DNA from: a virus
Direction: 5' to 3' (one strand)
DNA: 22,725 nt
IMG/VR virus record: IMGVR_UViG_3300022198_000214
Span: 1-22,725 of that record
The notes below the pieces were generated by a model. The model ran no database searches. It saw only the letters and a list, made by a program, of their open reading frames with translations, and was not told the DNA's origin. The position numbers and the translations under genes are program-made. Of the stretch, positions 13,381 through 17,087 are shown in pieces (positions within the stretch are counted from its first letter, which is position 1; each line of letters starts with the position of its first letter).

Positions 13381-14769
13381 ATGGCTGACGAAAGAGATAG
13401 ATTACGTAAACTTCGTGAACTTGAAGCACAACAAGTTGCTGCTACTCCGGTAGAAAAAACAACAACAAGAACTAAACCTTTAAGCGAAGAACAAAAAATT
13501 GCTTATGCTGAACAGAAAAAAGCCCAGCGTGAAGCAACAGCATTGGCTGAACAACTTGGGGCTAAGATTGACCCTAAGACTGGTTTAATTGATAAAGAAA
13601 CTGTTACCAATCCTTTTGGTATTTATGGACCTAAAGGTGGCAAGACTAAGATTTTCCAAGGTTACAGAGGTAGCGGTAAAAACCGAGTATTTGTAATTAC
13701 TTATGCTGATGGCACTGAAGATGTTACTGCAGCCCCAGAGGGAGGCGGGGACGATAAAGGTGGCGGAAAAACTGAAACTGATAGAGAATATCTAGGTTCA
13801 GGAGCAAGCAGGGTTCTTCGTATTTATTATTCAGATGGAACTTTCCAGGATTTTCCTGCTGCCGAAACTGTAACTAAAGATACTACTACAGACGCATTAG
13901 TAGAATACCAAAAGCAACAAGATGCTGCTGCTACAAAAGCCAGCAGAGAATCTGCTTTTGATATTTTAAAAGCAGAGTTTACTAAATATGGTTTAGGCAG
14001 CCTTGTTGATACAGTCAAAAACCTTATTCTTGATGGTGTATCTAAAGAAGAAGTAACTATGAAGTTACGTGAAACCCAGGCATATCAGACTCGTTTTTCC
14101 GGCAATAAAGGAAGGCTAGATGCTGGTCTTAATGTTTATGATGAGTCTACTTATTTAGAATTAGAAAATCAATATGATTTAGCGCTAAGTTCTTATGGCG
14201 TATTAGATGCTGCTGGCAGTACTACTGCTGCTCGTCAGGCTAAATATGGTGAATGGATTGCTGGAACTAAATCTCCTAATGAAATAAAAGGTAGGGTTCA
14301 ACTAGCCGTCGCAGCCCAGGCTGAGGATGAAGTTACTAAGGCCACATTAAGACAATTCTATCCTATGATTTCTGATACAGATATTATTTCTTACTTTTTG
14401 AATCCAAAAGATACTTTGCCTAAATTAGAAACAAAGGTAAGAGCATCTCAGATAGGTGCTGCTGCAGTAAGACAAGGCTTAGTAACTAATGTTACTACTG
14501 CTGAAGAACTTGCTGCTTTTGATATTACAGAAGAACAGGCTCAACGTGGCTATTCTGCTTATGCTGGTATGAAGCAAGACATTGATAAGTTAACCGGAAT
14601 TGACAGAGTAACATTCGGCCAAGCAGAAGCAGAAGGCGCATTGCTAAAAGGGTTAGCCTCTGAGCAAAGGAAATTAGAAGGTCTCCGAGAGAGAGAAATG
14701 GCAAGATATAAAGGCGCTTCTGGTGTATCTAAGGTAGCGCTTGGAGATGCCGCTAAAGGCACATTTTAG
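13381..14769 (+). CDS. Putative internal virion / minor structural protein with two beta repeats
   Basis: A 462-aa protein in three parts. Residues 1-60 are a charged helical N-terminus. Residues 95-120 and 137-162 are two copies of a short beta unit with pattern Y-x-G-S-G-x2-R-V-x2-I-x-Y-(A/S)-D-G-T, separated by a Gly/Asp linker. Residues about 190-450 are a long helical domain (LRETQAYQTRFSGNKGRL, later SYFLNPKDTLPKLETKVRAS and QIGAAAVRQG). I recall this helical pattern from phage structural proteins near capsid genes, but cannot name the family. The ATG lies after AGGGG with a short spacing. It is the last gene of the 8.6-kb block, and its stop is followed by the structured leader. Confidence 0.65.
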   Translation: MADERDRLRKLRELEAQQVAATPVEKTTTRTKPLSEEQKIAYAEQKKAQREATALAEQLGAKIDPKTGLIDKETVTNPFGIYGPKGGKTKIFQGYRGSGKNRVFVITYADGTEDVTAAPEGGGDDKGGGKTETDREYLGSGASRVLRIYYSDGTFQDFPAAETVTKDTTTDALVEYQKQQDAAATKASRESAFDILKAEFTKYGLGSLVDTVKNLILDGVSKEEVTMKLRETQAYQTRFSGNKGRLDAGLNVYDESTYLELENQYDLALSSYGVLDAAGSTTAARQAKYGEWIAGTKSPNEIKGRVQLAVAAQAEDEVTKATLRQFYPMISDTDIISYFLNPKDTLPKLETKVRASQIGAAAVRQGLVTNVTTAEELAAFDITEEQAQRGYSAYAGMKQDIDKLTGIDRVTFGQAEAEGALLKGLASEQRKLEGLREREMARYKGASGVSKVALGDAAKGTF

Positions 14770-14887
14770 AATCCTGACACGGACCGACCAGCCCCGTGCA
14801 GTGTACAAGACTGGTAGCAAGAGCCAGCCTACTTTCCCCTGAGTAGAACTGTGGCTTGCGACAACAACGACAGAAAGGGTGGTTGCT
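14770..14887 (+). ncRNA. Candidate structured leader RNA of the scaffold-capsid genes
   Basis: This 118-base gap is exceptional in an operon where genes normally overlap. CACGG (14778-14782) pairs with CCGTG (14794-14798), and the loop bases ACCAG (14787-14791) pair with CTGGT (14811-14815), giving an H-type pseudoknot on paper. A longer imperfect stem follows directly: GCAAG (14817-14821) and CC (14824-14825) with GG (14853-14854) and CTTGC (14855-14859). It encloses CTACT/AGTAG (14829-14833 with 14842-14846). A purine-rich AAAGGG ribosome-binding site lies downstream. I do not recognise a named RNA class. It may be a cis-acting translation regulator, a processing site or a protein-binding site. 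Confidence 0.5.
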
Positions 14888-14896
14888 ATGAGCAAC
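14882..14896 (+). promoter_or_regulatory. Hairpin with the scaffold start codon in its loop
   Basis: GTTGCT (14882-14887) and AGCAAC (14891-14896) are perfect 6-bp arms whose 3-base loop is exactly the ATG start codon of the scaffold gene. The arrangement is seen directly; an effect on initiation is inferred. Confidence 0.45.
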
Positions 14897-15358
14897 AACT
14901 ACTGGGATGATGAAGACGAAGACCAAGATACAGAAGTAAGTCTGACTGGTGATGACCTTGTAAAGAAATTACGCAAGGCTAAACGAGCAGATGAAAAGCG
15001 TATCAAGGAACTTACAGAGCAACTTGAGAGTTTTACCAAGGCGCAGCGTGAGCGTACCGTCAAAGAAGTCCTAGAAAAGAAGGGCATAAACGCTAAGGCT
15101 TCTCGCCTTATCCTTAAAGACTTAGATGATGTCACAGAGGAATCTCTGGATGGATGGCTCCAGGAAAATGGAGACCTAATCGGTTATCAACCTGAAGTCA
15201 AGGATGAGCAGAAGGAGCAGAATCTTGCTGCCTTAAGACAGCAGGATGTGCTCACACAAAGCGGAGTATCGCCCGAGAGAGCAGATGAGTTAGCAATGAA
15301 ATTGGACAATGCGCAAAGTGCAGACGAATTGCTAGCCTTCCTACGCTCTCAGTCCTAA
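14888..15358 (+). CDS. Putative capsid scaffolding protein
   Basis: A 156-aa acidic protein directly before the major capsid gene, the usual place for an assembly scaffold that shapes the prohead and then leaves. Residues about 10-22 are nearly all Asp/Glu. A long Lys/Glu-rich coiled-coil region follows (residues about 27-65, VKKLRKAKRADEKRIKELTE onward), then a helical C-terminus ending in LLAFLRSQS. Small size, charge and coiled coil match scaffolds of other phages. ATG 14888 is preferred over GTG 14879 because AAAGGGTGG lies just before it. The start codon sits in a hairpin loop. No protease gene was seen nearby. Confidence 0.7.
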   Translation: MSNNYWDDEDEDQDTEVSLTGDDLVKKLRKAKRADEKRIKELTEQLESFTKAQRERTVKEVLEKKGINAKASRLILKDLDDVTEESLDGWLQENGDLIGYQPEVKDEQKEQNLAALRQQDVLTQSGVSPERADELAMKLDNAQSADELLAFLRSQS

Positions 15359-15386: not shown

Positions 15387-16340
15387 ATGGCTAATGCCTA
15401 TACAAGCACCGGCTCCTCCTCTCTTGGAGGTACCGTTGGCTCGGCAGGTCTAGTTCAAAAGGCGTATGACCGCCTTCTTGAGTTCGCTCTCCGCTCAGAA
15501 CCACTAATCCGTTCTGTCGCAGATAAGCGTCCTGCTCGCCAAGCAATCCCAGGCTCAACCGTAGTTCTACAGAAGTACGTTGACCTAACCGCAGCAACTT
15601 CCGCTCTCACGGAGGATACTGACCCAGATGCAGTTGCACTGTCAACTCCAACTCAAATCAGCATCACTCTCGCTGAGTACGGAAATTCTGTTCTAGTAAC
15701 TCGTGCGTTGGAACTCTTCAGCCTTGCTGATGTAGACCCAGCGATTGCAAATATCATTGCGTTCAACCTTGCTGATTCTATTGACAAGGTAGCAATGACC
15801 ACACTTCGTGGCGGAACCAACGTAATCTACGGTGGTAACGCTTCTTCAACAGCAACTGTTGACGCAACCGACACAATCTCCTCAGCAAACATCCGTAAGG
15901 CTGTTGCTAAGTTGCGTGCCGGAAATGCTAAGGGCCGCAAGGGCAACCTTTACTGGGTTGGTATTCACCCAGAAGTTTCACACGACCTTCGTGCTGAGAC
16001 AGGTTCCGCAGGCTGGCTCCTACCTCACCAATACGGAACTGACCAGAGCAGCATCTGGGCAGGAGAAATCGGTAACTACGAAGGTGCATACTTCGTTGAG
16101 ACCAACCGTATGTACAACGCTACTGACGGAGCATCATCTGCTCGTAACTACCGCACAATCGTTGCGGGTCAGCAAGCATTGGCTGAGGCTGTTGCCGAAG
16201 AGCCACACGTAGTAGTCGGACCAGTAGTTGACAAGTTGATGCGTCACCGCCCAATGGGCTGGTACGGCGTACTCGGCTTTGCTCGCTACCGCGAAGATGC
16301 TTTGTACCGAATTGAAACCGGTTCCTCAATCGCTTCCTAG
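15387..16340 (+). CDS. Major capsid protein, N4-gp56-like
   Basis: A 317-aa protein that should form the icosahedral shell with an HK97-type fold. It shows the pattern I associate with the N4-gp56 capsid family: an N-terminal segment with LIRSVADKRPARQAIPGSTV (about 40-59), a TSALTEDTDPD segment (about 70-80), ISITLAEYGNSVLVT (about 90-104), a central helix region ending in MTTLRGGTNVIYGG, and a C-terminal GPVVDKLMRHRPMGWYGVLG. Codons are more regular and C-ending than in the flanking genes, as expected for a highly expressed protein. It is preceded by a hairpin-embedded ribosome-binding site and followed by a strong GNRA hairpin. Confidence 0.88.
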   Translation: MANAYTSTGSSSLGGTVGSAGLVQKAYDRLLEFALRSEPLIRSVADKRPARQAIPGSTVVLQKYVDLTAATSALTEDTDPDAVALSTPTQISITLAEYGNSVLVTRALELFSLADVDPAIANIIAFNLADSIDKVAMTTLRGGTNVIYGGNASSTATVDATDTISSANIRKAVAKLRAGNAKGRKGNLYWVGIHPEVSHDLRAETGSAGWLLPHQYGTDQSSIWAGEIGNYEGAYFVETNRMYNATDGASSARNYRTIVAGQQALAEAVAEEPHVVVGPVVDKLMRHRPMGWYGVLGFARYREDALYRIETGSSIAS

Positions 16341-16346
16341 TTGATT

Positions 16347-16384
16347 GACTGTCGGGCAGGGGAAACCCTGCCTGATGGTGAGTC
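16347..16384 (+). terminator. Strong GAAA-capped hairpin after the capsid gene (possible terminator or mRNA-protecting element)
   Basis: Bases 16353-16361 pair with 16366-16374 (one G-U) around a GAAA tetraloop. Adding T-A and G-T steps, the stem reaches 16351-16376, and GACT (16347-16350) can close with AGTC (16381-16384). No T-tract follows, so full intrinsic termination is doubtful. Partial termination or protection of capsid mRNA 3' ends is more plausible. Confidence 0.55.
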
Positions 16385-16399
16385 CATTAAGGAGGACTA

Positions 16400-16971: not shown

Positions 16972-17087
16972 TGCCAAAAGTTGGAAAGAAAGAATTTCCT
17001 TACACAGCCAAGGGAAAGAAGATGGCTGAGGCTGAAAAGATGAAGATGGCCAAGAAAAAGAAGGCTAAGAAAAAGAAGGCTATGTAA
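16971..17087 (+). CDS. 38-aa lysine-rich miniprotein
   Basis: A very short gene whose ATG overlaps the previous stop (TAATG) and whose stop overlaps the next ATG (TAATG). The product has 16 lysines in 38 residues. It begins MPKVGKKEFPYTAKGKK, a start I recall from small basic phage proteins, and ends in two KKKK runs. The exact fit between neighbours is the best evidence that it is real. The likely role is binding to DNA or an acidic protein surface in the head; this is inferred from charge only. Confidence 0.7.
   Translation: MPKVGKKEFPYTAKGKKMAEAEKMKMAKKKKAKKKKAM

Follow-up and report, generated by a model that had tools for sequence, protein, structure and literature searches.

In phage T7, late mRNA units are bounded by RNase III sites and by a terminator after the capsid gene, and in other systems cotranscripts of tRNAs and mRNAs are cut by tRNA-maturing enzymes. 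The gene 32 leader of phages T4, T2 and RB69 has an H-type pseudoknot at its 5′ end, ahead of the ribosome site, and is subject to autoregulation by gp32 and to RNase E processing at -71; in T4, nuclease processing just upstream yields a stable mRNA (PMC3014915). Here we describe a leader RNA of similar design from IMG/VR record IMGVR_UViG_3300022198_000214, a 22,725-base stretch of DNA from a freshwater bacterial virus (hereafter the window). The window holds a structural operon encoding the large terminase, the portal, several virion proteins, a scaffold-like protein and the major capsid protein. The 118-nucleotide (nt) gap at 14770–14887, directly upstream of the scaffold-like gene, encodes an H-type pseudoknot (stems P1 and P2) followed by a long hairpin (P3/P4). 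As in the gene 32 leader, the pseudoknot stands at the 5′ side of an A+U-rich ribosome site. In contrast to that leader, the element described here belongs to unrelated phages and to a different gene context, the scaffold-capsid operon, and has no known binding protein; it also has a second large hairpin with a CCCC apical loop, and it abuts a tRNA or tRNA-like element.

Comparison of more than 200 related lake and soil virus sequences, in which the predicted pairs are kept by matching mutations, confirms this leader as a real conserved structured RNA. Covariation was assessed with an R-scape-like procedure, namely a G-test with average product correction scored against null alignments that redistribute substitutions along a FastTree tree; the E-values are bounded by the 60 and 150 null alignments used, and the tree was built from the leaders themselves. 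In a structure-agnostic alignment of 149 distinct freshwater leaders, 8 out of 10,440 pairs reached E<0.05, and all of them fell inside the proposed helices: three in P1 (14780–14796, 14779–14797 and 14778–14798), two in P2 (14790–14812 and 14788–14814, both paired, with covariation, in 149/149 leaders) and three in P3/P4 (14827–14849, 14830–14844 and 14833–14842). When the independent set of 67 leaders from soil and Streptomyces phages was analysed, the top four pairs again belonged to P2 and P1 (all E≤0.02), and the P2 pairs equivalent to the freshwater ones were formed in 67/67; two other soil pairs at E<0.05 fall within the coding start. Among 28 diverse freshwater leaders, 94.2% of cells were paired in the named structure, compared with 22–38% when the partners were slid, and two-sided changes occurred at all five core pairs of P1 and at three of the five pairs of P2. 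The covariation score was 0.488 for the named structure and at most 0.117 for slid partners. The original prediction had proposed such a covariation check, and both pseudoknot stems indeed proved to be kept by compensatory changes in the freshwater and in the soil set.

Within the window, both pseudoknot stems and the hairpin lie exactly where they had been predicted (Table 1), and an unsupervised pseudoknot search recovered the pairs 14778/14798 and 14787/14815. For P1 the core pairs are exact, but the stem is longer than claimed and continues past a bulged A; across the leaders, the partner types of this extension were CU/AG (100), CC/GG (21), CU/GG (10) and CC/AG (0). The single-sequence evidence was modest. 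The z-score of the nested-only minimum free energy was -0.69 for 14770–14887, a value that is uninformative because nested-only folding disallows the pseudoknot. Among dinucleotide shuffles, 0.5% reached the pseudoknot score in 14770–14816, and 10% did so when the stretch was extended to 14770–14870; the hairpin, with a fold energy of -13.7 kcal/mol, was matched by 3.6%. Where this signal is moderate, we consider the comparative evidence to be decisive for the predicted fold. A scan for intrinsic terminators (a G+C-rich hairpin plus a U run) found no terminator-like site in 14600–14950.

The related loci came from a capsid-based search of viral contigs, which returned at least 80 freshwater loci at ≥82% identity as well as soil and Streptomyces-phage loci; capsid identity is about 53% for annotated Streptomyces phages and 77% for Planktophila-infecting phages. 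A leader before the scaffold gene could be extracted from 76 of 81 freshwater loci, the window included. Four of the remaining five are contigs too short to reach the leader. The fifth, L078, was rejected as a natural leaderless case, as its junction at 2630–2690 joins the leader's 5′ half to sequence from the middle of the scaffold gene and is probably an assembly or deletion artefact; locus L245, another candidate leaderless case, carries its leader further upstream. When a pattern for the P3 hairpin alone was run against viral contigs, 118 of the 119 matches listed were whole leaders in scaffold context, and the other was a chance coding match. The order of elements is the same in soil and freshwater leaders. 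An extra hairpin is inserted between P2 and P3 in the L261 leader and between P4 and P3 in the L282 leader.

A covariance model (R1) trained on freshwater leaders only found soil leaders at the same position with E-values down to 1e-10 (L301, L313, L291 and L319) and matched many other soil leaders more weakly. Beephvirinae leaders gave marginal matches (E ~0.3) and are linked through intermediates such as L319. In lineages to which the model is sensitive, each near-complete genome gave a single strong match; an additional marginal one appeared in two genomes, and two soil genomes had a marginal match only. No match to the model was obtained in capsid relatives at greater distance (Bacillus phage Page, MW202801 and Bacteroides BS162P1). 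In the pre-scaffold gap of Bacillus phage Page (L087, ~545–612) we noted a possible small H-type pseudoknot (CGAC/GUCG and UGAG/CUCA) and a UUUUCC/GGAAAA hairpin adjoining the ribosome site.

Table 1. Coordinates of the leader elements and neighbouring features in the window
Feature	Position	Strand	Details
TAGAATCC block directly 5′ of P1	14767..14774	+	candidate 5′-end-generating site: RNase E-type cut between AAU and CCU, or -10 box
P1 pseudoknot stem	14774..14801	+	core 14778-14782 with 14794-14798; extension 14774-14776 with 14799-14801 around bulged A14777
P2 pseudoknot stem	14787..14815	+	loop bases 14787-14791 with 14811-14815; covariation
P3/P4 hairpin	14817..14859	+	14817-14821/14855-14859, 14825-14827/14849-14851, 14829-14834/14841-14846; apical loop UCCCCU
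Candidate P6	14837..14879	+	P4-loop CCCU 14837-14840 with Shine-Dalgarno AGGG 14876-14879
P5 start-codon hairpin	14882..14896	+	GUUGCU 14882-14887 with AGCAAC 14891-14896, AUG in loop
Scaffold-like protein gene	14888..15358	+	PHROG 7813, 5.7e-31; start ATG 14888
Major capsid protein gene	15387..16340	+	PHROG 1357 major head protein, 1.9e-82; Phage_capsid_3, 1e-10
Long perfect hairpin directly after capsid stop codon	16343..16384	+	-31.6 kcal/mol; candidate 3′ boundary of scaffold-capsid unit

As to the function of this structure, we infer from the sequence context a cut junction followed by a knot that would protect or tune the mRNA, and the leader probably controls the lifetime or the translation efficiency of the capsid mRNA. 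Our preferred reading, held tentatively and at slightly less than an even chance, is that the leader forms the cis-acting 5′ end of a processed scaffold-capsid mRNA. In soil phages a tRNA-maturing nuclease would leave the 5′ end at the base of P1, and in freshwater phages a C-preferring RNase E-type cut would leave it there. The knotted leader would then shield this end from 5′-dependent decay by RNase J and RNase E, and the A-rich spacer that separates P3 from the Shine-Dalgarno (SD) sequence would keep the ribosome site accessible, the outcome being that the most-demanded virion proteins would be made from a stable short mRNA. In some lineages, translational tuning via P5 and P6 might be layered on top.

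Processing is suggested by the soil phages. A tRNA called by ARAGORN lies within 400 nt of 49/69 soil leaders, and in 47 of these 49 the start of P1 is found -2 to +6 nt from the tRNA 3′ end. The abutting tRNAs are of eight types (Val, Pro, Phe, Asn, Met, Ile, Asp and Gln). A T-loop is present ~21 nt 5′ of P1 in 61/68 soil leaders, and 16 of the 19 leaders lacking an ARAGORN call show a T-arm when searched by script. Several lineages (L255, L256, L315, L253, L269 and L287) carry a truncated acceptor/T-arm minihelix of 41–56 nt in place of the full tRNA. Directly 5′ of the L301 leader, an 83-nt element (1095–1177) matches the Rfam family for transfer-messenger RNA (tmRNA; 50.6 bits, gathering 47; E=5e-17) with its tRNA-like domain only, lacking the mRNA-like domain, and is called neither tRNA nor tmRNA by ARAGORN. 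That minihelices persist in leaders lacking a full tRNA is the pattern expected if the cleavage signal, and not the tRNA, were needed, and it is the best reason to favour processing. The arrangement resembles tRNA-mRNA cotranscripts in that a tRNA or tRNA-like element would set the 5′ end of the downstream mRNA, and differs from them in that the downstream RNA is a conserved pseudoknot whose 5′ helix starts at the tRNA CC(A). At locus L245, positions 1888–1921, directly 5′ of the leader where a tRNA would be expected, form a long perfect hairpin whose loop resembles a T-loop (GGTCAAAC).

No tRNA was found among the freshwater phages checked, namely four near-complete genomes and two isolates. 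Directly 5′ of P1, the freshwater leaders carry a TAGAATCC block, which is strongly conserved among 126 distinct leaders (T 81%, A 98%, G 87%, A 98%, A 76%, T 100%, C 100%, C 100%). The block occurs once in the whole window, and across the freshwater loci 96 occurrences are leader-associated, compared with 10 in other contexts. In purified form, mycobacterial RNase E cleaves directly before a C (PMC10641625), and in Mycobacterium smegmatis C occupies the +1 position at more than 90% of cleavage sites (PMC6448022). Given this preference for cutting just 5′ of cytidines, a cut between AAU and CC is plausible and would leave the 5′ end at the base of P1. The TAGAATCC block and the tRNA or tRNA-like abutment lend circumstantial support to a processing site, one of the functions named in the original prediction.

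A more far-reaching proposal, which we regard as possible yet rather unlikely, is that the leader acts as a phage-specific 5′-terminal mRNA cap, in which the tRNA or tRNA-like minihelix would be the cleavage signal and the abutting pseudoknot a 5′-exonuclease roadblock that stabilizes the capsid mRNA; lake phages would have kept the structure, with a different cut site in place of the tRNA. If true, this would be the bacterial-virus counterpart of exoribonuclease-resistant RNAs. The flaviviral representatives are likewise compact pseudoknotted RNAs proposed to stop 5′–3′ decay, but they adopt a ring-type fold; the pairing topology here is plain H-type, and location and host differ. One such folded element from a virus is able to block RNase J1, a bacterial enzyme (PMC5760640), a precedent that also speaks for the shield in our preferred reading.

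Several points weigh against a processed and protected 5′ end. The tRNA abutment could merely reflect compact packing. A -10 box would match TANAAT as well, in which case transcription could start at the freshwater 5′ end. Simple H-type pseudoknots are not known to stop RNase J. Finally, P5 and P6 point towards translational control.

P5, in which the AUG is placed in a hairpin loop, scored ≥12 in 93% of freshwater leaders versus 21% of shuffles; its stems are compensated and differ between lineages. It recurred in part of the soil set (39% versus 15% of shuffles). It is absent in Beephvirinae and was rejected as a family-wide feature. Complementarity between the P4 loop and the SD sequence, the candidate P6, is seen in many soil leaders (for example CCUAG/CUAGG, CCCAU/AUGGG and CCUCCC/GGGAGG), and its first pair is formed in 56/67 of them. 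The single-pair p-value of 5e-4 becomes E ~4 after full correction, and P6, which was noticed in the same data as tested and amounts to only CCC/GGG in most freshwater leaders, was rejected as a significant helix; the pairing is suggestive only. These features bear on the main rival to the processed 5′ end, a translational operator or switch in which the pseudoknot and hairpin would hold the SD sequence (by pairing with the P4 loop) and/or the start codon (in P5). The balance would be shifted when scaffold or capsid protein binds, or by some other signal, much as gp32 acts on the T4 gene 32 leader. This rival is live and compatible with processing, and we give it somewhat less weight. The compensated start-codon hairpins of freshwater and some soil lineages argue for it together with the P4-loop complementarity, and scaffold and capsid, encoded just downstream, need a fixed ratio; the shortcomings of P6 and the lack of P5 in Beephvirinae argue against it, and it leaves the abutment of P1 to a tRNA or tRNA-like end unexplained. 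The translational switch envisaged earlier has in its favour the lineage-specific start-codon hairpin and a suggestive loop pairing, the latter failing full correction.

A dedicated late promoter, in which TAGAAT would be the -10 box for a host or phage sigma factor and the structure would begin near the transcription start of a 5′ untranslated region, appears improbable. The motif TANAAT with its near-invariant A and T is compatible with such a box, and a gene for a sigma-70 factor is present in the isolates E7 and F5 (PMC10202952). However, the 126 distinct freshwater leaders show no conservation at -35, a scan of the leader found no sigma-70-like promoter, and no such motif was seen in the soil set. 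Moreover, P1 covaries only 2–3 nt past the putative -10, at positions upstream of any plausible transcription start. As a general late-promoter motif, TAGAATCC was rejected, since it does not recur in the window and is rare elsewhere in the loci.

Database searches place the leader outside the named RNA classes. An Rfam 15 scan of the window at the gathering threshold returned no match, and at E≤10 the leader region yielded only irrelevant small nucleolar RNA scores below threshold; the related loci yielded only tRNAs, the upstream tmRNA-like domain and one weak chance-level match elsewhere in L269. The earlier statement that no named RNA class matches the leader holds for the window and the related loci. 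An exact core-motif pattern had no match in a collection of 84,980 bacterial and archaeal species genomes, diverged copies being outside the reach of the pattern. A metabolite-binding riboswitch, for which a tandem structured leader with possible SD pairing would be typical of the translational kind, is very improbable in view of both searches, with no Rfam riboswitch matching even at E≤10, and of the location before virion genes and not metabolic genes. Least probable of all is a self-cleaving ribozyme separating the capsid mRNA from upstream RNA: the order of stem, pseudoknot and hairpin resembles in outline that of the pistol ribozyme, but no ribozyme family, pistol included, matched in the all-family Rfam scans, and the linker of ~10 nt is shorter than that of pistol. 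The element is not described in the open-access literature that was searched, subscription literature being outside the search, and in the annotated Streptomyces phages examined it lies, without annotation, between the last tRNA and the scaffold gene. At the level of sequence comparison, the leader is shown to be tied to one capsid lineage of actinophages; the central proposal of a pseudoknot-containing leader RNA before the scaffold and capsid genes is supported by covariation and by its absence from Rfam.

The scaffold-like protein has, besides its PHROG assignment, a weak Pfam match to the DUF4355/Gp46 scaffold (E=0.002, below the cut-off). GTG 14879 was rejected as its start, the start codon being the ATG listed in Table 1, which is conserved as MSNN. 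The gap had been described as the only sizeable one in the operon, which is correct upstream of the capsid gene; further gaps of 59 nt (16341–16399) and 115 nt (16972–17086) follow downstream. The latter, 3′ of the capsid region, is purine-rich and has no evident strong structure. The hairpin after the capsid stop codon is near-perfect and well below shuffled controls in 53/55 related loci, with mostly GAAA-type loops in freshwater and UUCG-type loops in the soil set; the freshwater hairpins lack a U run. Given the 5′ leader and this 3′ hairpin, the scaffold-capsid pair is bracketed by structure on both sides, in keeping with our preferred reading. The layout recalls the late mRNA units of T7, where processing in front and a strong hairpin behind define the scaffold-capsid mRNA, and differs in its 5′ structure and probably in the nuclease.

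Two freshwater Nanopelagicales phages of this lineage have been isolated (PMC10202952). A large actinophage lineage shares the leader, including both cultured Streptomyces phages and phages that infect the abundant freshwater Nanopelagicales, and the genes it precedes are those needed in the largest amount. With this leader, it becomes testable how the stability or the translation of capsid mRNA is set in these phages, and whether tRNA arrays of phages have a second role as signals for mRNA processing.
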